DNA from: Lachnospiraceae bacterium | GTDB taxonomy: Bacteria > Bacillota > Clostridia > Lachnospirales > Lachnospiraceae | DNA: 64,000 nucleotides | NCBI GenBank assembly: GCA_017553505.1 | Contig: JAFZLD010000014.1 | Span: 1 to 64,000 of the forward strand | Reading direction: 5' to 3' | Shown here: positions 3,414-16,300 of the stretch, piece by piece | How positions within the stretch are numbered: the first letter of the stretch is position 1 | Layout: each line of letters begins with the position of its first letter | Notes under the pieces: model-generated | The model's database searches: none | What the model was told of the DNA's origin: nothing | The model's input: only the letters and a program-made list of their open reading frames with translations | Position numbers and translations under genes: made by a program

Positions 3414-3438
3414 AATCTGCGTTTTTTATATGTGCTTT

Positions 3439-3468: not shown

Positions 3469-3508
3469 TCGGTTTTTTATTACTTTTTTCTAAAGATTTG
3501 GAGAGTAC

Positions 3509-3539: not shown

Positions 3540-3671
3540 CATGTAATCCTTTATTCTTTTATATTCCGCGATAACTTACGCTACTTTGTCATCTGCTGCA
3601 TCATCTCGGGCAGAATTCATATAAAAAGATTGTAAATTTTACTGTAATATAACTACTCTACAAACTTAAGT

Positions 3672-4196
3672 TTATCCCTGCACCCTGTCCCACAATTGCA
3701 CTTCCACATAAGCGTACTTCCCAAGCGCTTCCTTGCAAAAAGCCTCTACAGAACCGCCACATGCCGCAATTCGCTCAAGAAGCATTTTCTTGGTCAGAAC
3801 CACCGGCTCATTTCCATGTATCATCAGGGCACAACTGTCGCCCAATGTAAAGCTGACCTGATTATCGGGAACATCTTCAAGCGCAATAGTAATCTTGTCA
3901 CTGCTGTTAAACCATTCTTTGAGATATTCACACTCCATCAGGGCAAAAGAAAAAGGATGCTCAAGCTTCGGATTTCCGCCCAACTCTATAAATCTTTCAC
4001 GCACAAATTCATCCGCTTTCTTTCGCGCGGGGTAGTAGTTCTCAAAGTCGGCAAATCGCCCGAAACTGGTAGTGTTCGGATGCAAATTGGCAAGTTCTTC
4101 CGCCTTGCGAAATGCCTCCTCCTCGGAAAGAAGCATTATATTCTTCCAAGGATCTGTTCCCGGATAGTAATAGTGTGTAATATAAAGCTTATCCAT
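3672..4196 (-). CDS. Conserved-type hypothetical protein, 174 residues
   Basis: The product is soluble and acidic, with no signal peptide or membrane span. It begins MDKLYITHYYYPGTDPWKN and contains an Ala/Glu-rich helix (LLSEEEAFRKAEELA), a central beta-rich part and ends VEVQLWDRVQG. I do not recognise a domain. The ATG at 4196 is preceded by GGAGG with a 5-base spacer. A GTG four codons upstream overlaps this site and is rejected. It is a monocistronic gene with its own terminator. The relation to the toxin-antitoxin pair 76 bases upstream is unclear. Confidence 0.65.
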   Translation of the reverse strand: MDKLYITHYYYPGTDPWKNIMLLSEEEAFRKAEELANLHPNTTSFGRFADFENYYPARKKADEFVRERFIELGGNPKLEHPFSFALMECEYLKEWFNSSDKITIALEDVPDNQVSFTLGDSCALMIHGNEPVVLTKKMLLERIAACGGSVEAFCKEALGKYAYVEVQLWDRVQG

Positions 4197-4272
4197 CAAA
4201 ACCTCCACAATGCGCCATTTGCAAATTTCTTGCCCAATTACTGATAATTATAATTCATCCACCGGTTCAAAA

Positions 4273-4578
4273 TCACCTTTTTCCTTTTACAATAATTCCC
4301 TGATCTTTAGGCGTAAATGTAACATTCAAAACCATATCCATACCTTCCGCAAGACGCTGTAGAAGCTTAATGGAAGGATTACGTGTCCCATTTTCCAACC
4401 TGCTAATTTCAGTCTGTGCAATTCCTGTTTTTTCAGAAAGATCTTTTTGGCTCATATTCTTAGAAATTCTGGCGTCAATCATAGCCCTGATAACATTCAT
4501 CTCCGGTTGTATTTCGTCATAAGCCGCTGCAAATTCAGGATCTTTCATCCTTTTTTCCTTGTACTCTTTCAATGTCAT
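4273..4578 (-). CDS. HigA-like Xre-family antitoxin
   Basis: The 101-residue protein has a helix-turn-helix at about 40-80 (MSQKDLSEKTGIAQTEISRL, then NGTRNPSIKLLQRLAEG). The N-terminal helix TLKEYKEKRMKDPEFAAAYD is typical of HigA-type antitoxins. It should bind and neutralise the upstream toxin and repress the shared promoter. Toxin-first order, as in classical higBA, is seen here, with 26 bases between the genes. The likely operator is the perfect palindrome inside the promoter at 4987-5000. Confidence 0.85.
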   Translation of the reverse strand: MTLKEYKEKRMKDPEFAAAYDEIQPEMNVIRAMIDARISKNMSQKDLSEKTGIAQTEISRLENGTRNPSIKLLQRLAEGMDMVLNVTFTPKDQGIIVKGKR

Positions 4579-4604
4579 TTAAATCACCTCTTGCCACGCC
4601 ATAT

Positions 4605-4955
4605 CTAATGTGCCCCGTAACGTCTTATCCAGTCAGCTCGTCTATCCTTTGCCAGCTTAATCTCACCCGATGGTGTTTTCTGTGTTTTCTTAATAAACCC
4701 ATTTGTAACTACGATTTTCCCACCGTAATAAAAGAAATAAAGAGCTCTGGTAATATTACTGCCTTGCTTGCATCGCAATTCAAATATTCCATCACCTAAC
4801 GGTTCAGAATATGGCATCCTTAGTTCCGTTCCCTTTTCCTCTAGTATTTCCATCAAACTAAACATTTTAGCCGCCATCTTCACATCAAGTGAATCCATAA
4901 AATCTGTTACCGGCTGCTTACCATCCTCTGTCTCGTAAAACTCGAGATTAAACAC
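4605..4955 (-). CDS. HigB-like toxin (phage Gp49-like / RelE superfamily)
   Basis: The ~116-residue product matches the Gp49-like branch of RelE toxins: YETEDGKQPVTDFMDSL near the start, ELRMPYSEPLGDGIFELR in the centre, and ALYFFYYGGKIVVTNGFIKK with basic residues at the end. Family members are ribosome-dependent mRNA endonucleases. GTG at 4955 is taken as start because GGAGG lies 7 bases upstream. The longer frame from 4976 would start at a TTG overlapping the ribosome site. All core motifs are present, so the module looks intact. Confidence 0.85.
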   Translation of the reverse strand: MFNLEFYETEDGKQPVTDFMDSLDVKMAAKMFSLMEILEEKGTELRMPYSEPLGDGIFELRCKQGSNITRALYFFYYGGKIVVTNGFIKKTQKTPSGEIKLAKDRRADWIRRYGAH

Positions 4956-4980
4956 AGTAATTCCTCCACTGTTCAATATT

Positions 4981-5010
4981 ATTATATGAGATATATCTCA
5001 ACTTTGTCAA
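4981..5010 (-). promoter_or_regulatory. higBA promoter with operator in the spacer
   Basis: Minus strand TTGACA (5005-5010) and TATAAT (4981-4986) are both consensus and separated by 18 bases. The spacer holds the perfect 14-bp palindrome TGAGATATATCTCA (4987-5000). This is a textbook autorepression site between the two core elements. Confidence 0.8.
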
Positions 5011-5017
5011 TCCGGTA

Positions 5018-5758
5018 TTATTCTTCACGCAAACCATTTCCAAAAGGTATCCCCACCTTCTCATACTCCCCTGTCACAGAATCAATCACTATCATCGCAG
5101 ACTCGCCGATCTGTCTTCCGTCATGGTGAGTAGAAAAGACATCTGTAGAAATAAACCCGTTCTTCTCATAAATCTCCTCGACCGGAGTATGCCCAACCAC
5201 CTGCTTGTAGACGTCACTTCTAAAGCCTTCTACCGCCTCATACTGGGGCCTGAGCCAAAGTGGAGACGCATTATCCCAAAGATATTTGCCGGGCGCGTCG
5301 TTAACCGCTGCCACTATATCATCTATGTCATCCTCCGCCGGGGACATGCCAAGCCTTTCCACAAACGCTTCCGTTAAGCCACCGTGAGAGAACAGCACAT
5401 TATCAATCCTGTGTAAAAAATAAATCTGCGATTCATCCTCAAGCGAATGCTCCAGTTCTTCGAGCTTAGATATTACTGTATTCTCCGCATATGGAGAGTA
5501 ACCCGACTCCAGCATTCCCCATGGATAACTGACATCATGATTGCCATAACACCACAAAGTATTAGGGAATTTCTTGGCAAAAGAAATTGCTCGGTCATAC
5601 GTCTCCCTATATTTTTCAACTTGGAACTCCGTGCCCCAATCATCCGGGATATCCATAAGGCAGACTGCCATATCAGCCTTTCCGCCCTCAAGAATGGCCT
5701 CAGCATTATCGAAAAGCCACGACTTTAAATGTACGTCAGGTATGACCAAAACTCGCAT
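5018..5758 (-). CDS. Calcineurin-like metallophosphoesterase
   Basis: The 246-residue protein has the metallophosphoesterase metal ligands in order: DVH near residue 8 (VLVIPDVHLKSW), a variant second motif, GNHD at about 92-95, SHGG at about 144-147, and GHTP at about 210-213. The family hydrolyses phosphomonoesters or diesters with two metal ions. The Ser/Thr-phosphatase-like arrangement suggests protein or nucleotide substrates, unproven here. The start at 5758 is favoured over 5776 because GAAAGGG precedes it. The classical GD..DRG second motif appears replaced by CLMDIPDDWG, which is unusual. The higBA promoter begins only 8 bases after its stop. Confidence 0.75.
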   Translation of the reverse strand: MRVLVIPDVHLKSWLFDNAEAILEGGKADMAVCLMDIPDDWGTEFQVEKYRETYDRAISFAKKFPNTLWCYGNHDVSYPWGMLESGYSPYAENTVISKLEELEHSLEDESQIYFLHRIDNVLFSHGGLTEAFVERLGMSPAEDDIDDIVAAVNDAPGKYLWDNASPLWLRPQYEAVEGFRSDVYKQVVGHTPVEEIYEKNGFISTDVFSTHHDGRQIGESAMIVIDSVTGEYEKVGIPFGNGLREE

Positions 5759-5917
5759 AGGTTGTTTCCCTTTCATTAACTATTTCTGTAATCCTCGGTA
5801 TTTTTTTCATTTTTACCGAGTTCAAAAGATTCTGCATAGTTATTATAGCTTTATGTCCAAAATGCAAATCTGCTGTGAAATAAATCATCTCCCCCTATTA
5901 TCTCTCCCCTGTTCTAA

Positions 5918-5946
5918 TTGTCTTCCCACCCCACCTGTGCTACCAT
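5918..5946 (+). promoter_or_regulatory. Predicted promoter of the orphan Xre gene
   Basis: TTGTCT (5918-5923), 17 bases, TACCAT (5941-5946), ending 28 bases before the ATG at 5975. Confidence 0.45.
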
Positions 5947-5974
5947 AAAGAAAAACCTCACGGAGCAACCCAGC

Positions 5975-6316
5975 ATGAAACCTGCATTAATTCCCGAGCG
6001 CCTTGTGAAAGCGCGTGAAAATCTGAATCTCAACAAAGCTCAGGCCGCAGACCTTATGGGGCTGTCGCCTATCGGTTATCTCAGATATGAGCAGGGACTG
6101 CGCGTTCCATCGGCTCAGATGCTTCGCATTATTGCCCTGACGCTTGATACTTCCGTCGATTACCTTACCGGTCAGACCGATGATCCTACTGCGGACCAGA
6201 TTATCATTACCAAGTCCGAGAATCCCGAGCTCTTCAAACTCGCAGCGGAACTCTCGCACAAAGAAACCGAGCAGACCAAGCGAATGCTTGCTTACTACAA
6301 CAAACTCAACCCCTAA
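5975..6316 (+). CDS. Xre-family helix-turn-helix regulator
   Basis: This 113-residue protein has an N-terminal Xre domain (LVKARENLNLNKAQAADLMG, then LSPIGYLRYEQGLRVPS) and a DYLTGQTD motif typical of phage-repressor-like Cro/C1 proteins. A short helical C-terminus (KETEQTKRMLAYYNKL) follows. ATG at 5975 has CGGAG about 10 bases upstream. The upstream in-frame ATG at 5918 overlaps the -35 region and is rejected. It is the only plus-strand gene for many kilobases here and stands alone, so its targets are unknown. Confidence 0.75.
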   Translation: MKPALIPERLVKARENLNLNKAQAADLMGLSPIGYLRYEQGLRVPSAQMLRIIALTLDTSVDYLTGQTDDPTADQIIITKSENPELFKLAAELSHKETEQTKRMLAYYNKLNP

Positions 6317-6403
6317 TATATAACCATTGGTTATATTCTATGTCACTTCTTTTGCCATGTCAACAGGCAATTCTTCTGCCCAAGAAAGGCTAGTCAAAAT
6401 ATA

Positions 6404-6434
6404 AAAAGCCCCACATCATCTCTGATATGAGGCT
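6404..6434 (-). terminator. Intrinsic terminator
   Basis: Minus-strand hairpin AGCCTCATATC/GATGTGGGGCT followed by TTTTTAT. It ends the small membrane gene at 6463-6699. Confidence 0.7.
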
Positions 6435-6462
6435 ATCTCTCTACTGTCGACAGACTTCTTGC

Positions 6463-6699
6463 CTACAAATTCTCCTCGTCGCCCTGCGCCTCTTCGGCCT
6501 TTAGCTTCCGATACAAAATCAGCTGATTGGCAAATATAATAAACCAAAGCAAATTCCATATCACCTGCATCAGAAAGTCCGGACCCTCAGCTTGATATTC
6601 TTTAGCGATAATATCCAGCACTGTTCTCACGGTCCATATTGCGGCGCACAGGCCGGTAAGAATCACCAGCGCTAACCTGTTCTTTGACGAAAGTTTCAT
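6463..6699 (-). CDS. Small two-span membrane protein
   Basis: The 78-residue product has two hydrophobic segments (about 9-30 and 44-64), a basic loop after the second span, and an acidic tail (KAEEAQGDEENL). The ATG has GGAGG 9 bases upstream. No family is recognised. It is monocistronic with a clear terminator. Confidence 0.65.
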   Translation of the reverse strand: MKLSSKNRLALVILTGLCAAIWTVRTVLDIIAKEYQAEGPDFLMQVIWNLLWFIIFANQLILYRKLKAEEAQGDEENL

Positions 6700-6793
6700 T
6701 GTCTAATACCTCCATTATCCCAATAGTTTTAAACACCCCACTTCATATACCCGCGCGCCCCCGGGACGCGCCCTGTGCAATGTATTAGGGCAA

Positions 6794-6892
6794 TTATAAC
6801 GTGGCGAGCCCTACGGCGCCGTTTCTGATTCCGACCACGCACACCAAAAGAAGCCAAAAGGCCATTACGAGTCCTTCTAAGATTAGTAGCAT
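6794..6892 (-). CDS. Very short membrane peptide, probably a truncated family member
   Basis: A 32-residue peptide begins MLLILEGLVMAFWLLL and ends RNGAVGLATL. Its start has AGAGG 6-8 bases upstream. Longer Firmicute proteins with nearly the same N-terminus (…LLLICVVGIANGPVGLV…, from memory) continue for about 25 more residues, so this copy may be prematurely stopped. A longer frame starting at 7087 has no ribosome site and runs through a terminator. It is a real peptide or the start of a decayed gene. Confidence 0.45.
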   Translation of the reverse strand: MLLILEGLVMAFWLLLVCVVGIRNGAVGLATL

Positions 6893-7033
6893 TTGTTTTC
6901 CTCTTTTGAAATATGATTTTGTATTTCTACAAAAATTGTGGCATATGCAGAGTCCCAGGTCAATGGGCTCTGTCGGCAAGTTAGAGCGCTGTATTTTGCT
7001 CGCCACCTTCTTTTGCCTCCCGACAATCATAAT

Positions 7034-7075
7034 AAAAAAGGCAAAAGAGCCCCGCCACCTAACTGTGGCAGAGCT
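7034..7075 (-). terminator. Intrinsic terminator of relBE
   Basis: Minus-strand stem GAGCTCTGCCAC / GTGGCGGGGCTC followed by TTTTGCCTTTTTT. Confidence 0.75.
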
Positions 7076-7098
7076 CCAACTATGCAATATTAGTCTGC

Positions 7099-7413
7099 TT
7101 AAAGCATCAAATTTTCATAATCCTGCAGCTCATGGAAGATATTATCCACTATAGCCATATCTCCATCTATGCGGTACATCATAAAATACCTGTGTGACAA
7201 AAAATTGATACGCCTGTAGCCGAGTTTTCTCAGTTGGGGATTCTCACATAGTTTAAGGCTTCCCGCTACCCTTGAAAGGTTATCCTTGGTCGCTTGGAAA
7301 TCCTCAAGAACATTAGATGCCGCTTGCTCGCTTCCTTTTTCTAAAAGAAGATAACTAATAAATCCATCCAAATCAGCCTCAGCATCTTCTGTAAGAACAA
7401 CTTTATAAGCCAT
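7099..7413 (-). CDS. RelE/ParE family toxin
   Basis: The 104-residue protein has the RelE/ParE fold signature: YKVVLTEDAEADLDGFISYL at the N-terminus, a helix-rich middle with ASNVLEDFQATKDNLS, then LGYRRINFLSHRYFMMYRID. A terminal aromatic-rich strand (IVDNIFHELQDYENLML) follows. Members cleave ribosome-bound mRNA or inhibit gyrase. The shared HRYFMMYR-type strand suggests a mRNA interferase. It overlaps the antitoxin gene by 11 bases, so translation is coupled. Confidence 0.85.
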   Translation of the reverse strand: MAYKVVLTEDAEADLDGFISYLLLEKGSEQAASNVLEDFQATKDNLSRVAGSLKLCENPQLRKLGYRRINFLSHRYFMMYRIDGDMAIVDNIFHELQDYENLML

Positions 7414-7696
7414 ACTTAGACCTCATATCAGAAGCAACATCGTCTGCATCTCTGTACTTGCCTTGAGAAGCGTGCTTTCTGGATGTTTCAAGGCGAGCCA
7501 ACATTTCGTCTGCTTTCATGGGAGTATAAGGGCCGGCAGCCGGCCTTTTAATTTCAAAAGGGAATCCGTTATTGGCAACCGCTTGTGTCAAAAACATGCG
7601 GATTGCTGAAGTTGTATCTGTGCCAAGATCTTTAAATAAGCTGTCGGATTTAGCTTTAAGTTCGTCATCAACACGCAACTGAATAGTACTAGCCAT
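7403..7696 (-). CDS. RelB/DinJ family antitoxin
   Basis: The 97-residue antitoxin has an N-terminal ribbon-helix-helix (MASTIQLRVDDELKAKSDSL, then FKDLGTDTTSAIRMFLTQAV) and a flexible C-terminal toxin-binding part. GFPFEIKRP is the family's typical link between the two. The start at 7696 is behind AGGAGG with an 8-base spacer. Three upstream in-frame codons are excluded. It should repress the promoter at 7727-7755 alone and with the toxin. Confidence 0.85.
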   Translation of the reverse strand: MASTIQLRVDDELKAKSDSLFKDLGTDTTSAIRMFLTQAVANNGFPFEIKRPAAGPYTPMKADEMLARLETSRKHASQGKYRDADDVASDMRSKYGL

Positions 7697-7726
7697 ATCA
7701 TGCACCTCCTATGCTATTGTAATGTT

Positions 7727-7768
7727 ATTATACTGCCATTTCATTTCTTTTGCAATGCATGAGCATTG
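7727..7768 (-). promoter_or_regulatory. relBE promoter and operator-like inverted repeat
   Basis: Minus strand TTGCAA (7750-7755) and TATAAT (7727-7732) are 17 bases apart. CAATGC-ATGA-GCATTG (7753-7768) overlaps the -35 element and could be the RelB operator. Confidence 0.65.
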
Positions 7769-7896
7769 TGTCAGCACAGAATTGATATGTAACCGTATTA
7801 ATCTCCCTCTACTCCCTATCCTCCCACTTATTCACGAACACATCCGCCTCCGGTCAAGCCTAAAAAAAATGTACACTTAAATCACAGTTCTCTTTA

Positions 7897-8151
7897 TTAG
7901 AAATCATCCTCATCCATCATATCCATTTCCTCCAGCTCATCGACGGAGTATCCGCTACCGGATGAATGACGGCCGCCGCCTCTCCGGCCGCCGCGCATCT
8001 TGGCGATGTCCTTGATGATGACAAAAGCAAGAATCACGATACCGAGTGCCCATATCAACACCTTCACACCCACCTCGCCGAACAACGCCTCGACTGAAGG
8101 ACCACAATAACCTATGATGAACAGTGCCGCTATAATCAAAAGAATAAGCAT
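7897..8151 (-). CDS. Small membrane protein with acidic tail
   Basis: The 84-residue product starts MLILLIIAALFIIGYCG and has two membrane spans (about 2-18 and 28-48). A Gly/Arg-rich stretch (RGGRRGGGRHSSGSG) and a very acidic end (DELEEMDMMDEDDF) follow. Its ATG at 8151 has GAGGG 5-6 bases upstream. A longer TTG start at 8187 is unsupported. No family is recognised. The Arg/Gly-rich segment followed by acidic residues is unusual. Confidence 0.6.
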   Translation of the reverse strand: MLILLIIAALFIIGYCGPSVEALFGEVGVKVLIWALGIVILAFVIIKDIAKMRGGRRGGGRHSSGSGYSVDELEEMDMMDEDDF

Positions 8152-8281
8152 CTTCTCCCTCAACTTTCTCGCGGGGTCCAAGGCCAACGGCCCGGTGGCC
8201 CCTTGCTATGGCTATATAGTAACATATGTGGGTGTACGATAATCCGTACTTTGCCCGCCCGAGTCCTCCCTTCGCGGGCAC

Positions 8282-8313
8282 AAAAAATCCCCGCCACCTC
8301 ACAGTGACAGGGA
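8282..8313 (-). terminator. Intrinsic terminator of the glutaredoxin gene
   Basis: Minus-strand hairpin TCCCTGTCAC / GTGGCGGGGA followed by TTTTTT. Confidence 0.75.
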
Positions 8314-8332
8314 CTAAATGCCTATATTAAGG

Positions 8333-8644
8333 CTAGCAGCCTTTCTTGCCGCTCTTGTGGTCTGCGATTGAGCAGGCACCGGGGGTGCCGTACTCGATGA
8401 GGCCGGCGTCGGCAGGGTCGACGGAGACGCGGCCGTCGGGGAAGACGAAGGCCGGGATGCCTATGTCACCGACTTCCTTGCAGTGATCGAAGACCGGCGA
8501 CGTGTCGCGCAGCCTCGTGAACGCAGACATGTTGCGCACATTCTCGCCGATGTTGATATATTCAAATTCATCCTCGCGCCCCTTAATCTGCTCGTGTACA
8601 TAATCGCAGTAGGGACACGTGGGCATTCCATAAATTTTAATCAT
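8333..8644 (-). CDS. Glutaredoxin-like protein
   Basis: This 103-residue thioredoxin-fold protein begins MIKIYGMPTCPYCDYVHEQI, with the CPYC redox pair at about 10-13. A conserved cis-Pro region (IGIPAFVFPDG) lies near residues 61-71. Glutaredoxins of this size reduce disulfides using glutathione or a related thiol. The C-terminus has two extra cysteines (GACSI and KKGC), uncommon for the family and possibly redox-active. GGAGG precedes the ATG. The gene is monocistronic. Confidence 0.85.
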   Translation of the reverse strand: MIKIYGMPTCPYCDYVHEQIKGREDEFEYINIGENVRNMSAFTRLRDTSPVFDHCKEVGDIGIPAFVFPDGRVSVDPADAGLIEYGTPGACSIADHKSGKKGC

Positions 8645-8765
8645 GATGAGTCCTCCTTGTCGTGTTATTTATAATCGTCATTATATTGTGCGCAATCTAT
8701 ATTGTCAAGTCACCGGGCCCAAAGAAACAAAAAGGCAGAATCGGTTTGATTCTGCCCGCTATTAT

Positions 8766-9002
8766 CTAATATTCCTTCTCCACCTTATCCAGTCCATACA
8801 TCCGCATGAACTGCGCCTTGTCCGCTTCGCCTCGGATCAGCATGACTTCGTGGAACTCGCCGGTGTGGCGGTTCTTGAAGCCGGCGACTTGCTCGCCGGT
8901 GCAGATGGAGGCGCGGATTACCGGGCGCTCGATTTCCGGGTCGTACACGTACGACGGCGCGGCGCCCGCCTTTTTCTTTTTCCAAACCTCAAACCACCCC
9001 AT
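8766..9002 (-). CDS. Conserved small protein coupled to proX
   Basis: The 78-residue protein contains PEIERPVIRASICTGEQVAG, then FKNRHTGEFHEVMLIR. This combination is common in small Clostridial proteins that are sometimes annotated as aspartate dehydrogenase. I see no dehydrogenase domain at this size, so that name should not be used. It begins one base after the stop of the upstream ProX-like gene, so the two are translated together. Function is unknown. Confidence 0.65.
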   Translation of the reverse strand: MGWFEVWKKKKAGAAPSYVYDPEIERPVIRASICTGEQVAGFKNRHTGEFHEVMLIRGEADKAQFMRMYGLDKVEKEY

Positions 9003-9003
9003 A

Positions 9004-9555
9004 TCAATCTTCCCCCACCAGCTTAACCTTCACATAATCATGCCCCGTCGCCGGCAGGAACTTATTAAGCACATCCGCCGTCTTCATCCTGAGGCTCGAC
9101 GTATTCACGCACGGATGGCACCCGACATCCTCGGCCGCCAGCACATCCTCATCAATCAGGAGCCGCACCGCCCGGTCCTTATCATTCATAAGCCCCATCA
9201 CGCTCACCGCCCCCGGCTCGATATCCAGGTACTTAACCATATCCTCCGCCTCAGCAAAAGAAAGCCGCGCCGAATTAATCTGTGCCGACAACTCCTTGGT
9301 CTTAAACTTCTTATCCCCCGGCATCATCAGCAGATAAAACTGCGTTTTCTGCCTGTTGCACAAGAACAGATTCTTGCAAATAATAACCCCGAGCACCGCA
9401 TCAATCCGCTCGCACACCTCCATCGTGCCCGCCGCCTCATGATCCGTCCTCATATACTCAATTCCCAGCCCATCCAGGAAATCATACGTCCGCATCTCGC
9501 GGGGCAGCCTTCCCTCGGCCTCGGAGGGGGTGGGGCGGCCTTTAAGTAGTTGCAT
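9004..9555 (-). CDS. Prolyl-tRNA editing protein, ProX/YbaK family
   Basis: The 183-residue protein is of the ProX (PrdX) type, which hydrolyses Ala-tRNA(Pro) made by mischarging. Visible family features are YMRTDHEAAGTMEVCERID near the N-terminus and CKNLFLCNRQKTQFYLLMMP. Near the end are GAVSVMGLMNDKDRAVRLL and a late CHPCVNTSSLRM. The ATG at 9555 has GGAG about 12 bases upstream, rather far. A start a few codons later (MRTYDFL, residue 21) is equally long relative to homologues. Residues before it (KGRPTPSEAEGRLP) look like non-conserved extension. Confidence 0.85.
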   Translation of the reverse strand: MQLLKGRPTPSEAEGRLPREMRTYDFLDGLGIEYMRTDHEAAGTMEVCERIDAVLGVIICKNLFLCNRQKTQFYLLMMPGDKKFKTKELSAQINSARLSFAEAEDMVKYLDIEPGAVSVMGLMNDKDRAVRLLIDEDVLAAEDVGCHPCVNTSSLRMKTADVLNKFLPATGHDYVKVKLVGED

Positions 9556-9599
9556 TGTGTTCTTTATCTCCTCGGTAATTTCATATTAAACTCAGTTCA

Positions 9600-10694
9600 T
9601 CACAGCAAAAGAACATTTCCGTTCCATTCTTCATGATTAACCGGCTTATCCTCTAAAACAAAGCTTTTCTCATCCGAACCTTTTATAACAGTATATTTTA
9701 TCTTCTTATCTTGCAATTCTACCTTTAGTTCGCATCCGCTATTCAGGTCTATGTCTTGCTTCTTGCAATCTGCTGCTATTCCCCGAAGCACTTTATTTTT
9801 CTTGCTTTTTAGGCCACTACAAATTTTAACTTTATCCTTTTCTAAGTAAACATCGTCCTCACTTTGTGCATCAACCAAAGGTTCTTTCAAATTAGTTATC
9901 GGTATCAAGTAGAACTCTTCGCAATCGGAAATATACATATTGTCTCCGGCTACAAAGCTGTTTCCCTCCAACTCAAACAAATATACAACCTTGCGCTCGT
10001 AGAAACTCTTTAAATGAGCAATTTCTCCGGTATATTCATTTACGGAAGCACAGACAGTCCAAGTGCAAAAGAAACCTTGAAGACCCGAAACAATTATTCC
10101 TGTAATCAAATACATTTTTATTGGCATTACAAAGCCAAAAATTATATTTACTTCAACCAACAGTAAAGCCACAAATAACATAAAGCCAATCTCAAAGTAT
10201 CTATACCACTTTCTGACTTTATAATATTTAGTTCTTCCCTTTTCTCTTTTTTGAACCCCGGCGGTATAAATCAAGCTCGCTATTAAAGCCACTAAAATGA
10301 TGACTGCAATAACGCATTTAGCTATAAAATCATAATCAATTGATTCGTTAGCATTCTGCCCATTTTGCACCGTTTGCGCTACCATATCGTTATCGCTTAC
10401 GCTAGCATCTGTTTGTGCTGTAATACCACTTTTCGCACTCTCCTGTTGCTTAAGCATTTGCGCTGAAATGTTAAAAGTATTAGTCATAAATCCCAAAGCA
10501 TAACAAACAATGACAAAACACAAGAAAACCGCAATCGTGCGAAAAACTTTATGTCGCTCCCTTTCTCCATGCGACATAAGTGTTATAGAAATTCGTGTTT
10601 GGCTGAGAAATACCCCTATGCCTATTGTGGCACTAATAGTTGCCGCAATAAATGACAATATCTTAGTCACGTTAACAATACTGTTTAAATCCAT
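9600..10694 (-). CDS. Membrane protein with C-terminal soluble domain, unknown function
   Basis: The 364-residue protein has hydrophobic segments near 10-30, 49-71, 119-145 and 167-215 (two spans). A Ser/Asn/Gln-rich loop lies between spans 2 and 3, and a beta-rich soluble domain occupies roughly 230-364. Start is supported by GGAGGG 4-5 bases upstream. No family is recognised. Its composition is more AT-rich than the genes on both sides, and its only partner is the membrane gene 24 bases upstream. That suggests a horizontally acquired two-gene unit. Confidence 0.6.
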   Translation of the reverse strand: MDLNSIVNVTKILSFIAATISATIGIGVFLSQTRISITLMSHGERERHKVFRTIAVFLCFVIVCYALGFMTNTFNISAQMLKQQESAKSGITAQTDASVSDNDMVAQTVQNGQNANESIDYDFIAKCVIAVIILVALIASLIYTAGVQKREKGRTKYYKVRKWYRYFEIGFMLFVALLLVEVNIIFGFVMPIKMYLITGIIVSGLQGFFCTWTVCASVNEYTGEIAHLKSFYERKVVYLFELEGNSFVAGDNMYISDCEEFYLIPITNLKEPLVDAQSEDDVYLEKDKVKICSGLKSKKNKVLRGIAADCKKQDIDLNSGCELKVELQDKKIKYTVIKGSDEKSFVLEDKPVNHEEWNGNVLLL

Positions 10695-10718
10695 ACATAC
10701 CCTCCCAATGTAAAATCA

Positions 10719-11168
10719 TCAATTATTTTTTTCTAACCTTATTCTAAAATGCCTATACGCCAGCCACGACACCACGCTATCAAAAGCATTTCCGCCACCA
10801 AACATCAACGCAATTCCAATCAATGTTGGCGTCCATGCACCTGTCAGATACAGCACGAAAAATAATCCATAATAAATACTGTTAGTCACTACAGACTCAA
10901 ACAGCATGTCCTCTTTAATAAATCCGCTTCTATCTTCTTTATTTGCACAGGGTAACCATTCACAGATGCTATCGCTTTCCAAATTAAACCTTCGAGCCTT
11001 AATGCATCCATTACAACGCTCTGAATCAACTGTTAACTCTTTTTTCCGACATTCTATTATGTCTATATCCATCCCGCTAGGCCAAGACTTCTTAATAGTT
11101 TTCAGCAATTCTTGTAGTTTACGAAATAGTAATTGCTCCGTTTGCGTTTGGTAGTTTGTAAATATCAT
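10719..11168 (-). CDS. Membrane protein, first gene of the unknown two-gene unit
   Basis: The 149-residue protein has a soluble N-terminal half with four cysteines (IIECRKKE, ERCNGCIKAR, SICEWLPCANK). Two C-terminal spans follow (about 96-112 and 114-135, with a glycine-rich ALMFGGGNAFD). The CNGC pair plus the later cysteines could bind a metal. No family is recognised. The ribosome site is weak (GTGAGTAAG) and the upstream region is AT-rich. It is transcribed with the next membrane gene. Confidence 0.55.
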   Translation of the reverse strand: MIFTNYQTQTEQLLFRKLQELLKTIKKSWPSGMDIDIIECRKKELTVDSERCNGCIKARRFNLESDSICEWLPCANKEDRSGFIKEDMLFESVVTNSIYYGLFFVLYLTGAWTPTLIGIALMFGGGNAFDSVVSWLAYRHFRIRLEKNN

Positions 11169-11423
11169 GCTTACTCACGTAATATCAGTATACGCCTCTC
11201 TCTAAGACAAAGTCTATTAAAATCATTTTTCTAACAAGACCACCTTCAATCATTCTGGCTAGTCTTATTACCGTTTCGATGTAAACGCCTATTTCCAATA
11301 CTCTCTAGAAAAGATTTGCTTCTTATTTTATAAAAAAATGAAGTGTCAAATTTCCTTCTGATACCTCTATGTAGTTAACACCATAATATAGTTCCCCAAT
11401 TGTATATTCAAATTGAAGCATAA

Positions 11424-11459
11424 CAAAATAGCCACACGGCTTTATTCCCGTGTGGCTAT
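11424..11459 (-). terminator. Intrinsic terminator of the Xre gene
   Basis: A 12-bp stem (ATAGCCACACGG / CCGTGTGGCTAT, one bulge) is followed on the minus strand by TTTTGTT. It is the only feature I see in the 309-base gap 11169-11477. Confidence 0.65.
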
Positions 11460-11477
11460 CCATAATAAAACAACATA

Positions 11478-11762
11478 TCAATCACATATAAGCTTAAGCA
11501 AACATAAAAGAATTTTCTCATAACTGTTATACTTCTTAGCTCTCTTGTTAAATGTTTCAACTATTTTTTCATCAACACCTAGTACAGTTAAATACTCGCT
11601 ATATAGTTTATCTGATGGCTGCCTTTCTCCTTTTTCAATTGCATGAATGTAACTTTGTGAAACATTCAATTCATCAGCCAAACTCTTTACCGAATACCCC
11701 CGTGCAATTCTCAACAATTTCAAAACATTGTCATTCGAATCAATACTACATATATTATTCAT
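11478..11762 (-). CDS. Xre-family helix-turn-helix protein
   Basis: The 94-residue product has a clear HTH at about 15-60 (LLRIARGYSVKSLADELNVS, then QSYIHAIEKGERQPSDKL). A C-terminal helix (EKILLCLLKLICD) follows. The start at 11762 has GTAGG 7 bases upstream. A GTG three codons earlier overlaps it. It stands alone 0.3 kb downstream of the cationic-peptide gene and could regulate it. Both are AT-rich and on the same strand, but no binding site evidence links them. Confidence 0.7.
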   Translation of the reverse strand: MNNICSIDSNDNVLKLLRIARGYSVKSLADELNVSQSYIHAIEKGERQPSDKLYSEYLTVLGVDEKIVETFNKRAKKYNSYEKILLCLLKLICD

Positions 11763-12008
11763 ATTTTTCACCTACTTCTGCTACTTTTCAATCGCCGCCA
11801 ATAACCGCCTTTTAACAAGTTGCAGTAGATCAAATAGAAGCCCTTACAAAAACATAAATATGCTAAGCTTCATTTTATGCGACTTTGTGGGATTTCTTTC
11901 AGTTTCCTAATAGACATAACAATCTGTACACCTCCTTCTATACTATATAAAGAATAACGTAACAATCGCGGTATAATCTATGATTTCACTTGCTATGCAA
12001 TGCCATTT

Positions 12009-12042
12009 TGTACAGCACTCTTGAAATCAAGAGTGCTGTACA
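12009..12042. repeat. Perfect 14-bp inverted repeat after the cationic-peptide gene
   Basis: TGTACAGCACTCTT - 6 nt - AAGAGTGCTGTACA, starting 8 bases beyond the stop codon. There is no U-tract on either strand, so it is not a standard intrinsic terminator. It may be an RNA-stabilising hairpin or a protein-binding site. Confidence 0.7.
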
Positions 12043-12050
12043 TCGTTAGC

Positions 12051-12260
12051 TTACTTTTCCAAAAGAAATTCAATCAACTTCGTCAATCCGATTTTGAAGA
12101 GCGTCTCCACGATCAAAACTACAAGCCATGAGAGGAACTTTATAAGAGTTCTTATGCTAGGCTTTCCTTTCAAATCGAGATAGCACTTTGTTACCTTAAC
12201 CCAATTTGAAGCCAATTTTACTTTCGTTTTAGAAAGTGCCGTTGCAAGTTGCTTTTTCAT
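12051..12260 (-). CDS. Small cationic membrane peptide
   Basis: The 69-residue peptide has a strongly basic N-terminal half (MKKQLATALSKTKVKLASNW then VKVTKCYLDLKGKPS). A hydrophobic C-terminal half (LIKFLSWLVVLIVETLFKIG, then LTKLIEFLLEK) looks amphipathic and could span the membrane once. It resembles a bacteriocin-like or toxin-like peptide only in overall character, and no family is recognised. The ATG at 12260 has AAGGCGG 5-8 bases upstream. An upstream in-frame ATG at 12383 would place the start inside the promoter. It is controlled by a strong promoter with three upstream 22-bp repeats and followed by a perfect inverted repeat. Confidence 0.6.
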   Translation of the reverse strand: MKKQLATALSKTKVKLASNWVKVTKCYLDLKGKPSIRTLIKFLSWLVVLIVETLFKIGLTKLIEFLLEK

Positions 12261-12314
12261 AATTACCGCCTTTCTAGCGGCGACTGAAAAATATTCACTT
12301 GTCAAAGAGCATTT

Positions 12315-12358
12315 TGTTGTTACAACACAAAAATACCATAGGTTCGCGCATTTGTCAA
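12315..12358 (-). promoter_or_regulatory. Promoter of the cationic-peptide gene with a start-site dyad
   Basis: Minus strand TTGACA (12353-12358), 17 bases, TATTTT (12330-12335). At the expected start site lies the dyad TGTTGT-T-ACAACA (12315-12327). Its GTTGT/ACAAC half-sites match the arms of the upstream 22-bp repeats. Confidence 0.7.
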
Positions 12359-12366
12359 GCTTTCTT

Positions 12367-12425
12367 GTTGTTTTTTTCAACATACTTTGTTGTTTTTTTC
12401 AACAAGCGCTGTTGTTTTTTTCAAC
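12367..12425 (-). repeat. Three tandem 22-bp repeats upstream of a promoter
   Basis: GTTG-TTTTTTT-CAAC occurs at 12367-12381, 12389-12403 and 12411-12425, start-to-start exactly 22 bp, i.e. two helical turns. Each unit is itself a short dyad. The array begins 9 bases upstream of the -35 box, an ideal place for cooperative activator or repressor binding. It explains most of the 379-base gap 12261-12639. Confidence 0.8.
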
Positions 12426-12639
12426 AAGCGCTCACAAAATTCCTCCTCACATTTAAATTGACACATGATGAATAGAAAATGGGAATAATATATTAGCCTT
12501 TATTTATTCTTATATACAACGAGTTTGATTATCTCCTTATGCCCTCCAGATATCAACAAGTATGCATCCTATGTTTTTTTCCCTCCCCATCCCCCATAAT
12601 ACCCCTATAACCACTCACACCACAGAAAGGACACCAGCC

Positions 12640-13128
12640 ATGGGCGGAAATGGAGCCGGACTTAAAATCATTGAAGAAGAAATGTCTCGCGGGGATTATC
12701 ATTCGCTGCGGCTTATTTGCGCGTGGGGAGCGTACATATGTGGGACACTTACATACCTAGGACTGAAACATATGGAGGGCCCCGGCAACCCGATAACAGC
12801 TACCGTGAACGACCTTAAAGCGGGCGTAGTCCGGGGGCAGGTGGTGACAGCGGGGCTTGCGGTGATTTTTCTTTTGCTGTGGGGGATTCTGATTGGAAAA
12901 TCGAAGAACCTGCTTGAGGAGATAGAGGACAACTGCCATATGTCCATATTCGCAGGTGTAGTCGCGGCTATCGTGTTAGGCGTGTGCACCTATGCCGTAT
13001 ATTCGACGCCTAAGTACGCGGGTAGCAGGCCGGCTATTTTGGTCTTGGACTTCCTCGGGGGAAGTTCGTTGGTGATTGGGGTGGTTGGATTGATTGCAGT
13101 GAAGCTCCGGAGACGGAGGAAGAAATAG
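12640..13128 (+). CDS. Four-span membrane protein, unknown function
   Basis: The 162-residue protein has an N-terminal acidic stretch (MGGNGAGLKIIEEEMSRGD) and hydrophobic segments near 24-40, 69-86, 102-121 and 135-153. It ends in a basic tail (KLRRRRKK). The ATG at 12640 follows AAGGA with suitable spacing. An ATG at 12562 lacks a ribosome site. No family is recognised. It is convergent with the MATE gene and shares a terminator with it. Confidence 0.6.
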   Translation: MGGNGAGLKIIEEEMSRGDYHSLRLICAWGAYICGTLTYLGLKHMEGPGNPITATVNDLKAGVVRGQVVTAGLAVIFLLLWGILIGKSKNLLEEIEDNCHMSIFAGVVAAIVLGVCTYAVYSTPKYAGSRPAILVLDFLGGSSLVIGVVGLIAVKLRRRRKK

Positions 13129-13144
13129 AGTAACAAGCATAACA

Positions 13145-13172
13145 AAAAAGAGTCCTTGCGGGCTCTTTTTTT
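13145..13172. terminator. Bidirectional terminator
   Basis: AAAAAAGAGTCC-TTGC-GGGCTCTTTTTTT between two convergent genes. Confidence 0.85.
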
Positions 13173-13192
13173 GACTATATAATCTGCCGGCG

Positions 13193-14518
13193 CTACTGCA
13201 CTCGGTTGCTCCGCCTATAGAACGCAACCGACAATCCCGCGGCCACGGCCCATCCTATGGGCCAAGCGCACCATATGCCGGTGGAGCCAAGCGATGTTGC
13301 GGAGAGTACTGCTGCCAGGATTACCCTGAGGATAAGGTCGGTGAATGTCGCAATCATGAACTTGCCCATCAGGCTCCTGCCCCGTAGTACGCCATCCGCG
13401 ATAAGCTTCGCTGACACGACAAAATAAAACGGTGCGATTATCCTAAGCAGCATAAGCCCCGATTCCACGGCTTCCGCCGACGGTTCTTTCATGAACAGCA
13501 TGAGAAGGTTCCGTCCGAACACGAAGTACAGCGCCGAAAGCGGCACGCACAGCATCCACACGAGCTTCAGTCCCGCGCGGAATCCCTTCGAGATTCTGTC
13601 GTACTTGCCGGCGCCCAGGTTCTGGGCCGCATAATTGGACACACCGTTGCCAAGCGTGGTGAAAGACGTAATTACGAGGTTATTAAGCTTAATGCCTGCT
13701 GAGTATCCCGCCATAACGCCGGGCCCGAAGCCGTTAATAATTCCCTGTATAACAATGTTTCCCACCGAAATAAAGCTCTGCTGCAAGGTGCTGGGTATAG
13801 CAATCTTGGCAATCTTCGCGAGGATGTTCCACGAGAATACCGGCGCCTTCTCAGCCGTCTCGACCCTGTGTAGCCGTCTCAACACGAACAGCACCGCCAG
13901 CGCGCAGCTCACTCCCTGGCATATAAACGTCGCCCAAGCCACGCCCGCGACCCCCATATGAAATCCGGCCACGAACCATATATCCATCAGAATATTCGAG
14001 CATGACGATGCCGCGAGGAACACAAACGGAGTCCTCGAATCTCCCATCGCCGAGAATATACCTGTGGAAATATTGTAAAAGAATACGAAAGGCAATCCAA
14101 AAATATAAATATCCAGATACAGCTTAGAATCCGCAAACACCGCCTCCGGCGTCTTAATAAGCCGTAGCAGCTCTCCGCACAGTCCCGCCCCCGCAATCAT
14201 CAGCGCCAGGCACAGCACTCCGCTCGAAATCATCGCAGTCGACACCGCTGTCTTCACATCTTTGTACTGCTTCCCTCCGAAGTACGTCGACACCACCACT
14301 GAGCACCCTATATTGCACTCGAAAGCAAAAGCAATAAATATAAGCGTTATCTCATAACTATTCCCCACGGCAGCCAGCGCGTTCTCACCGATAAACCTTC
14401 CCGCCACCAGACTGTCCGCGATATTATACAACTGCTGAAAAATAATACTTCCAAAAAGAGGGAGGCAAAACCTCCACAATACCTTCCGGGGTTCTCCCTC
14501 CGTTAGATCTCTGTTCAT
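13193..14518 (-). CDS. MATE family efflux transporter
   Basis: The 441-residue protein has about 12 hydrophobic segments and the duplicated MATE pattern. The N-terminal PLFGSIIFQQLYNIADSLVA is the hallmark of the DinF/NorM-like branch, and a matching PSTLQQSFISVGNIVIQGII starts the second half. Such proteins export cationic compounds or drugs using Na+ or H+ gradients. Substrate is not inferable. GGAG is 7-8 bases before the ATG. It is monocistronic. A second MATE gene lies at 48.7-50.1 kb. Confidence 0.9.
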   Translation of the reverse strand: MNRDLTEGEPRKVLWRFCLPLFGSIIFQQLYNIADSLVAGRFIGENALAAVGNSYEITLIFIAFAFECNIGCSVVVSTYFGGKQYKDVKTAVSTAMISSGVLCLALMIAGAGLCGELLRLIKTPEAVFADSKLYLDIYIFGLPFVFFYNISTGIFSAMGDSRTPFVFLAASSCSNILMDIWFVAGFHMGVAGVAWATFICQGVSCALAVLFVLRRLHRVETAEKAPVFSWNILAKIAKIAIPSTLQQSFISVGNIVIQGIINGFGPGVMAGYSAGIKLNNLVITSFTTLGNGVSNYAAQNLGAGKYDRISKGFRAGLKLVWMLCVPLSALYFVFGRNLLMLFMKEPSAEAVESGLMLLRIIAPFYFVVSAKLIADGVLRGRSLMGKFMIATFTDLILRVILAAVLSATSLGSTGIWCAWPIGWAVAAGLSVAFYRRSNRVQ

Positions 14519-14609
14519 TTAATCATCTCCTGTCATTTATACATCGATGATTATAATGCTTGTGGGGTGGGCGTGCAAAGAGTATTTCTTTGGTCTTTCT
14601 TTGGCATAT

Positions 14610-14641
14610 AAAAAGGAGCCCGGCATGAAGCCGAGCTCCTT
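14610..14641 (-). terminator. Intrinsic terminator of the fic operon
   Basis: Minus-strand stem AAGGAGCTCGGC / GCCGGGCTCCTT followed by TTTTATATG, 8 bases after the stop. It closely resembles the terminator at 3509-3539. Confidence 0.8.
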
Positions 14642-14648
14642 GATATTT

Positions 14649-15332
14649 CTAATTATTTCCAAACAATCTCTTTTCCAGTTCAAAATCTGCATCGTCTTCA
14701 GATAAAATCAATAATTTCGATGTTAGTTTTTCTTGTAAGCCTACATACTCGCCTTTAGGGATACAGCATTTTTTAAAAATGGCTTCCAGCCAAGAATTGT
14801 CTCCACTATCAAATGACAAAACACTAGCGCTGAGCATTTCGCTGTGAACAGTCCTTGTTAAATCAAGTATATAGCCACATTTGAGGCAAAGCTCTCTTGT
14901 AAATTCTCGCTGGCTTCGGCCGTTGCCTTCACGAAATGGATGAAGCGCATTTAAATCGCCATAATGCTTAGCCAAGGTCTTCACAAAGGCCGTCTTGTCT
15001 TTTCTCGCCTCATAGCAAGAGCTGTAAAAATCAGAAAACACCGTAACAGCATAATCTTCAATGAACTGAGCTCTGCAGAAAAGGTTTCCTTTGCTTATAT
15101 CTATATCACGAACTTTACCGGCCCAAGAATAAATGTCTTGAAAAATAAATCTATGAATATCTTTCAAGTGCTTAAAGTTAAATTTACCCCTTATAGGATG
15201 TAACTGGAGATACGCAAGGTTGCCACCCGTAGAAAGTGCTTCCAGTACTGCGAGTTCTTTGGCATCATGGCAATCAAACTCATTAATCAGAACATCTTCG
15301 CCGGGATATTTGTAGTGGTCAATGCTTTCCAT
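14649..15332 (-). CDS. Fic/Doc family AMP-transferase (toxin)
   Basis: The 227-residue protein carries the full Fic motif HPFREGNGR at 131-139, with catalytic His131 and the anion-hole glycines. It also has the family's SWAGKVRDIDISKGNLFC segment at 69-86. Fic proteins transfer AMP or related groups to target proteins such as gyrase or EF-Tu. I see no internal inhibitory [ST]xxxE[GN] motif in it. That motif sits in the overlapping upstream gene, the class I layout. The 14-base overlap implies coupled translation. The module looks intact. Confidence 0.88.
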   Translation of the reverse strand: MESIDHYKYPGEDVLINEFDCHDAKELAVLEALSTGGNLAYLQLHPIRGKFNFKHLKDIHRFIFQDIYSWAGKVRDIDISKGNLFCRAQFIEDYAVTVFSDFYSSCYEARKDKTAFVKTLAKHYGDLNALHPFREGNGRSQREFTRELCLKCGYILDLTRTVHSEMLSASVLSFDSGDNSWLEAIFKKCCIPKGEYVGLQEKLTSKLLILSEDDADFELEKRLFGNN

Positions 15333-15675
15333 TCGCCTTGTAGTTCTCCTTCAGCATCTTCTGATATTCTGCTCTGGAAATCTCGCCCTTAAGCATCTTG
15401 CCAATAGCGTCTACGCCAGCTTTGCCTATACTAAGATTCTCTATTGCCAGTGTTGCCTGAGTCTGCCGTAACATGTCAATCTGAGCAGTCGTATATTCTT
15501 GCTCAATATACCCGTCACTCTTCATAACTCTTGAAATCAGCGAAGTTACGTAATCGGGCGGATTAGTCTTGCCCTGTTCCCAATGCTGGATATTGGCTAC
15601 CGGAATTCCAAGGTACAAAGCAAACTTATTCTGGGACATTCCCGTTGTACTTCTAAGTGCTTTTATAGCATTCAT
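15319..15675 (-). CDS. Xre HTH fused to a VbhA-like anti-Fic helix (antitoxin)
   Basis: The 118-residue protein has an Xre DNA-binding domain at 1-50 (LRSTTGMSQNKFALYLGIP, then VANIQHWEQGKTNPP). At 66-112 is a helical part with TLAIEN (75-80), which fits the inhibitory [ST]xxxE[GN] motif of VbhA-like Fic antitoxins. LKGEISRAEYQKML follows, like the second VbhA helix. It would bind Fic, block ATP orientation with Glu79, and repress the shared promoter. ATG at 15675 follows GGAGGG. The fusion of repressor and anti-Fic helix is an inference from sequence. Confidence 0.8.
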   Translation of the reverse strand: MNAIKALRSTTGMSQNKFALYLGIPVANIQHWEQGKTNPPDYVTSLISRVMKSDGYIEQEYTTAQIDMLRQTQATLAIENLSIGKAGVDAIGKMLKGEISRAEYQKMLKENYKANGKH

Positions 15676-15696
15676 AAAACAGCCCTCCGTATACTT

Positions 15697-15726
15697 ATAG
15701 TATATACTATTAATATATATTATCAA
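15697..15726 (-). promoter_or_regulatory. fic operon promoter with palindromic operator
   Basis: Minus strand TTGATA (15721-15726), 18 bases, TACTAT (15697-15702). The perfect 14-bp palindrome ATAGTATATACTAT (15697-15710) overlaps the -10 box, as expected for antitoxin autorepression. Confidence 0.65.
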
Positions 15727-15744
15727 GCCATTCCATGAAATCTT

Positions 15745-15921
15745 TTATCTTTCTTTTGCAAGATACTCCACCGGCACTTCCTTCGTAAGCCATACGCCGT
15801 TGACTGAGCGATAGAACTTAAAGCCGTCGCGGTGCATACGACCCGCACGGACGGTATAGATTACGGGCTTGTGGCAAAGGATGAGGGAGATGAATTTGGA
15901 GGTGTCGTTGGTGTTACTCAT
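15745..15921 (-). pseudogene. Internally deleted RNA 2'-phosphotransferase (KptA/Tpt1) remnant
   Basis: A 58-codon frame begins MSNTNDTSKFISLILCHKP, the start of KptA (DTSKFLSFVLRHKP in relatives). It then continues directly with VIYTVRAGRMHRDGFKFYRS and NGVWLTKEVPVEYL, the last part of KptA. Roughly 110-120 central residues are missing, including the substrate-binding Arg/His region. The join falls at a His/Gly-Lys-Pro-Val type sequence present on both sides in homologues, suggesting an in-frame deletion by short homology. Start codon and GGAGG are intact, so a short protein may still be made. Catalytic activity is not expected. The family call is made from remembered homologue sequence. Confidence 0.75.
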
Positions 15922-15976
15922 TGAGGTATCCTCCTTATGGTAATCCTAATAATATAAATCGTACCAGAACTGAGTA

Positions 15977-16300
15977 TAATGCATAAAACCCGCGAAATCC
16001 CCAATTTTATCCATTGTTTTGTAGGCATTTTTCTGGGCACCAATGCATAAAATCGCGAAAAGCTGTTTTTTATCCATTGTTAGCGGGGCTTTGAAACCGA
16101 TACAAGGCTGATTTTGGGCAAAAGCAAGGGATAAAAGCCGGAAATTAAGACTTTTATCCTTTGTCTGCTACATTTTTAAACTGATATTCTGAAAAAACAA
16201 TGCATAAAAAAGGCAGAATTGGACTTTTTATCCATCCCACCTATTTTTTTGCCCTGATTTTTAATGGATAAAATGGCGAAAATCGCGAATTTATGCATTA
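15977..16300. repeat. Array A: five 39-40 nt palindromic units
   Basis: Units lie at 15977-16016, 16041-16079, 16125-16163, 16198-16236 and 16262-16300. Each has inverted ends of the type YAATGSATAAAA … TTTTATSCATTR (one unit has AAGGGATAAAA/TTTTATCCTTT). The 13-15 nt core is variable and often contains GCGAAA. Start-to-start distances are 64, 84, 73 and 64 bp. No ORF or terminator function is evident. The array fills the 421-base gap between the kptA remnant and the SGNH hydrolase. Confidence 0.8.

Follow-up and report, generated by a model that had tools for sequence, protein, structure and literature searches.

The window, by which we mean the whole stretch of 64,000 nucleotides analysed here, carries on its minus strand a compact cassette in which three operator-like units are followed in turn by a promoter, a dyad, a Shine-Dalgarno (SD) region, a 69-codon open reading frame (ORF), a palindrome, an xre gene and a terminator-like stem. 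The ORF (P0001, 12051..12260, minus strand) reads from 12260 to 12051 and encodes the basic, amphipathic peptide of membrane type that the original prediction had described: its translation and composition give 14 K/R and 4 D/E residues and a net charge of +10, with the N-terminal half basic and moderately amphipathic and with the hydrophobic segment C-terminal. In that C-terminal segment the 19-residue hydropathy runs at 1.4-1.7, the maximum mean being 1.73 (residues 40-58), and the 18-residue windows starting at residues 31-40 have a high hydrophobic moment. The SD-like sequence AAAGGCGG stands ahead of the ORF, and the SD region of the peptide gene, AAAGGCGGTAATT (12261..12273, minus strand), has a near-copy, AAAGGCGGTTATT (11800..11812, minus strand), which was found by the repeat search and agrees with it at 12 of 13 positions.

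Counted from an in-frame ATG at 12383, the open peptide frame extends over 110 aa. When the 709-nt region is shuffled 2000 times, a frame of 69 aa arises in 4.9% of the shuffles and one of 110 aa in 0.15%, and the open frame is thus moderately improbable by chance. These numbers bear on the alternative that the ORF is untranslated and that the locus is a structured RNA or a decaying remnant, which we hold to be very unlikely. The frequency with which 69 codons arise in the shuffles, the want of a homologue and the fold of leader, ORF and palindrome together (z -5.4) would all fit that alternative, yet the rarity of the 110-codon open frame and the coherent basic and hydrophobic pattern of the encoded peptide speak for a coding sequence, the palindrome drives much of the fold signal (z -2.4 without it and -1.1 for the ORF alone) and no Rfam match reaches its gathering score in the window.

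The peptide has no match in Pfam, NCBIfam or PADLOC and none among the PDB sequences up to E 10, and in PHROGs one family row appears at E 0.28 only. Homologues were sought in three overlapping genome samples. Among 60 genomes, its own included, the peptide is found in its own genome only, and among 397 family genomes at 0.005 the search returns the peptide itself and one match containing a stop. Among 391 class genomes at E 0.05, 12 genomes including its own give a match, a count to be read against the about 20 chance matches expected from that per-genome threshold over 391 genomes. The 12 weak places in the 11 other class genomes have E of 5e-4 to 0.04 and are 27-44% identical in parts of their length, stops interrupt 8 of them, and the plus-strand frames around 11 of them (all but L043) hold no convincing homologue. 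In the genome-contig collection 110 pattern stretches were found and none was confirmed, the scan requiring an exact 8-residue match and thus being insensitive; in the viral contigs none of 20 pattern stretches was confirmed, and in plasmids and phages there is no match (tblastn, E 1). Judged by these comparisons, the peptide is without a credible relative in the genomes, genome contigs, viral contigs, plasmids and phages searched.

Upstream of the ORF, the consensus promoter predicted for the peptide gene is present as TTGACA-17-TATTTT with a TG extension (12330..12358, minus strand), scoring 10 of 12 in a promoter scan whose total of 6 is close to the shuffle mean of 4.6. The matching dyad that had been placed at the start site is likewise found by pattern search, as TGTTG-TAA-CAACA at 12315..12327 (minus strand), near the likely start site. 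The three operator-like units read TGTTGTTTTTTTCAACA on the plus strand and lie at 12410-12426 (unit 1, TGTTGAAAAAAACAACA), 12388-12404 (unit 2) and 12366-12382 (unit 3), with spacings of 22 and 22 bp; all three belong to the minus strand. The exact 22-bp spacing of three repeats thus agrees with what had been claimed, with 17 nt identical among them, whereas of the form GTTG-T7-CAAC that had been given for them the units stand and the T7 does not, the coding strand carrying A7: on the minus strand the unit is TGTTG-A7-CAACA, 17 bp long, with a period of 22 bp.

Units 1 and 2 together with their spacers are identical 22-mers, and to judge from this identity they resemble a tandem copy made recently. 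Unit 3 agrees with unit 2 at 16 of 16 core positions, and its spacer departs from the one preceding unit 2 in 4 of 6 bases; the probability that all four changes fall in the spacer is 0.002 for a core/spacer boundary that was drawn post hoc, from data already inspected. Because the core is kept while the spacer bases differ, the comparison suggests selection on the operator core. Note also that the TTGA of the -35 element is in the 22-bp register of the TTGA of the units, which may be chance.

The centres of the units permit a reading that needs no dedicated regulator, namely that phased A-tracts raise the promoter strength through curvature or UP-element-like contacts with RNA polymerase; we give it a low probability. 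With the start site estimated, the A7 tracts fall at about -51, -73 and -95 and share one helix face, and the A-tract phasing at the array is the window maximum, reached at 10 of 63910 positions, with the top phasing confined to 3 ninety-base bins (12330, 15930 and 16110). However, curvature needs A-tracts only, yet TGTTG/CAACA is exact at every copy, and the same two half-sites recur in the start-site dyad, where there is no A-tract. The phased A7 tracts may strengthen the promoter as well.

The reading of the units as binding sites of a cassette-specific protein is favoured by where such sequences occur. TGTTG-N0..9-CAACA has 4 places in the 64-kb window, all in the cassette, and when the promoter and leader (105 nt) are shuffled, 56 of 20000 shuffles contain it; GTTGTTTTTTTCAAC with at most 2 mismatches has 3 matches in the window, all in the cassette, against a shuffle mean of 0.21, with none of 100 shuffles reaching 3. 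Over the 3.13-Mb genome the exact GTTGW7CAAC is found at 3 places, all in the cassette, the reversed control giving 0. Looser forms, which weigh against this reading, do occur elsewhere: with GTTGAAAAAAACAAC at up to 2 mismatches there are 19 places (3 in the cassette and, outside it, 2 with one mismatch and 14 with two), against 11 for the reversed control, and TGTTG-N7-CAACA with any centre has 8 exact places, 3 in the cassette and 5 elsewhere, and 193 places at one mismatch, against 59 for the reversed control. The idea of a self-contained compact cassette is borne out, in that the exact A/T-centred core of the operator array is confined to the locus. With this core absent from the rest of the genome, a cassette-specific regulator is most likely, and nothing points to a LytTR regulon.

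Beyond this genome, the operator pair was found among 397 family genomes in its own only, in 5 contigs of the genome-contig collection and in 0 viral contigs, a looser form occurring in 7 viral contigs. Four of these contigs (L023, L025, L026 and L027) carry GTTGTW..TACAAC-type dyads. In L024, a Candidatus Aminicenantes contig, two TGTTG-N7-CAACA units with 22-bp spacing lie at about 2073-2109 in a sequence close to the cassette operator, and no comparable peptide gene is recognised among the listed ORFs of that contig. Among the viral contigs, L052, L055, L056, L057 and L058 carry TGTTGC..GCAACA direct repeats with a spacing of about 21-22 bp, which resemble replication iterons and are apparently unrelated to the cassette; L053 and L054 carry other repeat units. 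The sequences around the units were inspected in all 12 outside contigs and the genes read in L024 and part of L026, and none of these operator-like units was accepted as evidence for the cassette. The possibility of an iteron or replication origin at the cassette itself was also considered and rejected, no rep gene being recognised at the locus.

Downstream of the ORF, the inverted repeat that had been noted after the stop codon is indeed perfect, at 12009..12042 (34 bp), but its arms are 16 bp around a 2-nt centre rather than 14 bp. The palindrome is not a canonical intrinsic terminator, because no T-run follows it on either strand. The Xre gene predicted just downstream is present on the same strand as the peptide gene (11478..11762, minus strand), encoding 94 aa, or 97 aa from a GTG at 11771, with a match to PF01381 (HTH_3) at E 2e-12, over the cut-off. 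After it stands a terminator-like stem with perfect 12-bp arms and a T-run (11426..11461, minus strand), the one terminator found in a scan with a shuffle mean of 0.9; that scan found no terminator ahead of xre. A possible weak xre promoter, TTGTTA-17-TATAGA (11937..11965, minus strand), was read by eye at 8 of 12 and is absent from the promoter scan. As a separate observation, between the palindrome and xre a strong SD-like GAAGGAGG precedes a possible 15-codon ORF (MSIRKLKEIPQSRIK; 11870-11935, minus strand), with a long SD-to-ATG spacing.

The region upstream of xre, 11763-12008, has three TTGTT fragments only and no TGTTG or CAACA. As it contains no full TGTTG-N-CAACA site, autoregulation of Xre by the operator is not indicated and for the same reason we infer, rather than read from the locus, the role of Xre as the array regulator. 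Relatives of xre were found in its own genome only among 298 family genomes at 1e-6, and at 1e-4 in 28 of 391 class genomes including its own, the best at 3e-8 with 46-47% identity over the HTH; the ORFs printed for the two best relatives (L059 and L060) include no comparable peptide. There are none in viral contigs, plasmids or phages, and no NCBIfam model is matched over its cut-off. By these comparisons the relatives of Xre are generic HTH only. Its best PADLOC match, to HTH_VI at E 4.8e-13 over residues 12-77, is probably generic HTH similarity as well.

We now consider the neighbouring genes. A MATE transporter gene (13193-14518) lies 0.9 kb beyond the array. On the minus strand at 10719-11168 is a 149-aa ORF that aligns through its residues 88-133 with the final 46 positions of MATE model NF045539 (48.8 bits, cut-off 350) and looks like a fragment or a fusion in the variable site. 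Beyond the MATE gene, a Fic/DOC-family protein (PF02661) and an overlapping upstream HTH_3 gene (14649-15332 and 15319-15726, minus strand) are possibly a Fic-type toxin-antitoxin pair, and a 58-aa ORF (15745-15921, minus strand) matches only the end of the RNA 2'-phosphotransferase (KptA/Tpt1) model, at positions 138-176 of 177 of PF01885 (25 bits, cut-off 26), and looks like a gene remnant. A 162-aa neighbour reaches immunity_LacI at E 0.043 (14.2 bits, cut-off 50).

The original prediction had proposed LytTR-like or other cooperative regulators binding direct repeats and, for the peptide, a bacteriocin-like or signalling role. In its combined form, a bacteriocin-like or signalling peptide under a LytTR-type or other quorum regulator, we find this quite unlikely. 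The cationic amphipathic peptide and the 22-bp period would suit it, as would the nearby MATE gene and the 11 LytTR domains of the genome, all over the cut-off and none on the contig of the window (C18). Despite these domains, however, the core is absent outside the locus, so that no second gene carries it exactly, and the unit is an inverted repeat, not a simple direct one. Moreover, no dedicated exporter, protease or other processing gene, modification gene or immunity gene is recognised among the scanned neighbours, the MATE gene is kept in a sister genome that has no cassette, and the peptide, besides being unmatched in the PDB and having the PHROGs row at E 0.28 only, matches no class II or leaderless bacteriocin family in Pfam, NCBIfam or PADLOC, none of which is bacteriocin-specific. 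Among the scanned window ORFs, which are a subset, no signalling genes are recognised. LytTR control and the bacteriocin and signalling roles are thus without positive support.

The sister genome, G013 of the same genus, keeps both flanks of the locus, matching window 9599-10712 at 78% and 12610-14530, with the MATE gene, at 92% identity. Between the flanks, 1.9 kb is replaced there by a 13.4-kb block (L038, G013:C24:38000-57500, about 2883-16253) with no similarity by blastn at E 1e-4. Among the products of this block are an HNH protein, a protein with a Schlafen-group-3 helicase domain that is matched by AbiO and PDC-S41 in PADLOC, a protein of metallo-beta-lactamase fold that matches LmuA, and a large protein whose nSTAND match stays below the cut-off; of the six G013 proteins searched against PADLOC, 2 match. 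As far as gene content tells, the insertion site is variable and in G013 holds some defence-like genes. When 18 genomes of the genus were searched with DNA 9500-14600, 5 matched including its own, and the cassette (11400-12590) is uncovered in the 17 others. The G+C is 0.32-0.36 over 11000-12499, 0.35-0.40 over 9500-10999 and 0.40-0.42 over 14500-15999, and low G+C alone is no mark of foreign origin because 9500-10999, over a gene kept in G013, is also low. Joint absence of peptide and repeats from relatives, which the original prediction had named as an outcome that would tell against it, is what is seen in the genomes searched. We take it to indicate an orphan accessory cassette rather than an artefact, and it removes all comparative support for function. 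The cassette is, on its sequence, real, well formed and an orphan, most likely an accessory, variably present small-peptide module, and the mechanism given below is a proposal.

Besides the array, the locus has a second potential layer of control. A segment of the peptide leader, X' (12274..12293, minus strand), is complementary over 20 nt to a segment X (11782..11801, minus strand) that precedes xre on its own strand, forming 20 continuous pairs of which 16 are Watson-Crick and 4 are G-U. A run of 20 is reached in none of 3000 shuffles (longest 17) and in none of 436 window stretches (longest 15), and among 4094 same-geometry window pairs a run of at least 18 is found at this locus only; the total duplex energy is only modestly rare, energies as low being reached by 1 of 200 and by 4 of 200 shuffles. 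The computed energies are -28.8 kcal/mol for the X:X' duplex versus -18.4 kcal/mol for the leader hairpin. In the modelled hairpin most of X' pairs with the SD and AUG, and when X' is held unpaired in the fold model, as a proxy for X' bound, the SD GGCGG is freed, from 0-0.05 to 0.72-0.88, and the AUG is freed too. In a model of the 898-nt co-transcript the probability of X:X' is at most 0.48 and the minimum-free-energy structure retains the local hairpin, so that in this calculation X:X' and the leader hairpin would compete about evenly. Occlusion of the SD was dropped as a type I hallmark, being ordinary in comparison with 34 window genes (14 of 48 ORFs having been left aside for want of an SD-bearing start): accessibility equal to or lower than that of the peptide gene is seen in 22 of the 34 over -15..+3, in 9 at the SD and in 15 at the AUG.

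The same segments are also visible in the DNA, as an inverted repeat of 17 nt at 88% identity, beside the direct repeat (12/13) of the SD region between the two leaders. It can thus be supposed that X/X' and AAAGGCGGTWATT serve in the DNA as sites for a protein or are left over from a local duplication or inversion, rather than forming an RNA-RNA switch, and that the locus is a plain transcriptionally regulated peptide gene with an Xre regulator, which has a real though minority chance of being the case. The inverted and the direct repeats in the two leaders fit binding sites or a copied block, and the G-U pairs of the 20-nt run lend no support of their own to RNA pairing, G-U having been admitted when the run was defined. 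Less well accommodated, though they weigh little, are two observations: both mismatches of the 17-nt DNA repeat become G-U pairs in RNA, and the X:X' pairing is more continuous than the pairing of the peptide's own initiation region.

Based on the above, we tentatively propose, as the best explanation, a model in which the cassette is a membrane-peptide module, possibly toxic, with a local DNA-binding regulator and a restraint at the RNA level. In the model, a cassette-specific DNA-binding protein, for which the cassette offers no candidate other than Xre, would bind the TGTTG/CAACA sites and set transcription, with the start-site dyad acting in repression and the phased upstream array activating or adding cooperativity. 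An RNA containing X, either the xre leader or a read-through transcript, would pair with the peptide leader over positions -33 to -14 relative to the AUG, and the X:X' pairing would change translation of the peptide, either by blocking ribosome entry, in analogy to type I systems, or by opening the SD/AUG hairpin, as the folding model has it. The peptide would insert in or lie on the membrane and, on release, slow or stop growth, the module then acting like a toxin-antitoxin or abortive switch. Among functions, a toxin-like or abortive peptide best fits what appears to be a basic membrane-type peptide under layered control in a site occupied by defence-like genes in a sister genome. Against this explanation stands that the ORF, the operators and the pairing, having no relative, are without conservation. 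Also against it are the looser operator matches elsewhere in the genome, the position of X on the same strand before a protein gene, with the weak promoter read by eye and no terminator found ahead of xre, the missing full site upstream of xre, the ordinary SD/AUG occlusion, the only modestly rare duplex energy, the hairpin retained in the co-transcript model, the length of the peptide and its C-terminal hydrophobic part when set beside the C. difficile toxins below, and a low G+C that is not peculiar to the cassette. A more specific form, in which the xre mRNA leader would open or close the peptide mRNA, giving a same-strand RNA-RNA circuit that links Xre synthesis to peptide release atop the cassette-confined array, is unlikely. 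If the proposal is true, a site that a sister genome fills with defence-like genes holds here a new, self-contained peptide module, in which some 1 kb accommodates control of both DNA and RNA type. Should the transcriptional part alone be real, what is left is a neat and new array of operators beside a candidate regulator, of modest interest.

It is instructive to set the cassette beside known systems. Xre/Cro-type repressor-operator modules are known from phages and from the autoregulation of type II toxin-antitoxin systems. The cassette is like them in having a small HTH_3 protein on the same strand and inverted-repeat operators at a promoter, and unlike them in that xre itself lacks a full operator, that three units at exact spacing stand upstream of the -35 and that the partner peptide falls outside known toxin families. 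Direct-repeat promoters of the agr/com/plantaricin type are controlled by LytTR proteins, and with them the cassette shares a period of about 21-22 bp upstream of the -35; by contrast, each of its units is an inverted repeat centred on A7.

The nearest likeness is to type I toxin-antitoxin loci, for which the literature search gave no title or abstract naming type I toxin-antitoxin or Lachnospiraceae, a result not taken as absence from print. Of such loci, zorO-OrzO has 18 nt of complementarity (PMC3919570), and in tisB/IstR-1 the antitoxin RNA pairs at the standby site (PMC4147584). Like these two, the cassette has a small basic or hydrophobic peptide and about 18-20 nt of complementarity in the leader rather than over the ORF. 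Unlike them, as they are portrayed there, its complement lies downstream on the same strand, before the protein-coding xre, where theirs is an antisense or divergent RNA, and it has an operator array, no sequence homology to them and no short RNA gene identified. The type I toxins described for C. difficile show no homology to the known ones, and several of them lie in accessory regions; they measure 34-53 aa, their membrane segment is N-terminal, and in the three modules treated in detail the antisense RNAs are convergent and overlapping (PMC6563280). With CD2517.1-RCd8 and others among these the cassette shares a small protein without homology to known type I toxins, although its peptide has 69 aa and a hydrophobic segment that is C-terminal.

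Taking the features of the type I class in turn, a small protein of hydrophobic or amphipathic character that carries a membrane segment is predicted here (69 aa, net +10, hydropathy up to 1.73 over 19 residues), and homology to a described type I toxin family, which the class does not require, is not seen, the peptide matching 0 Pfam and 0 NCBIfam families. For the antitoxin RNA there is the 20-nt complement at 11782-11801, with no separate RNA gene, promoter or terminator established, and for a locked initiation region there is an SD/AUG paired in the model, which is not unusual against the 34 window genes. Because of the same-strand arrangement, because no separate antitoxin RNA is established and because the toxicity is predicted only, we do not file the cassette as a type I member; by analogy, it would work like type I loci. 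If this is true, a same-strand, leader-derived complement replaces here the separate antisense RNA that would be expected, and searches for antisense or divergent RNAs would miss such loci.
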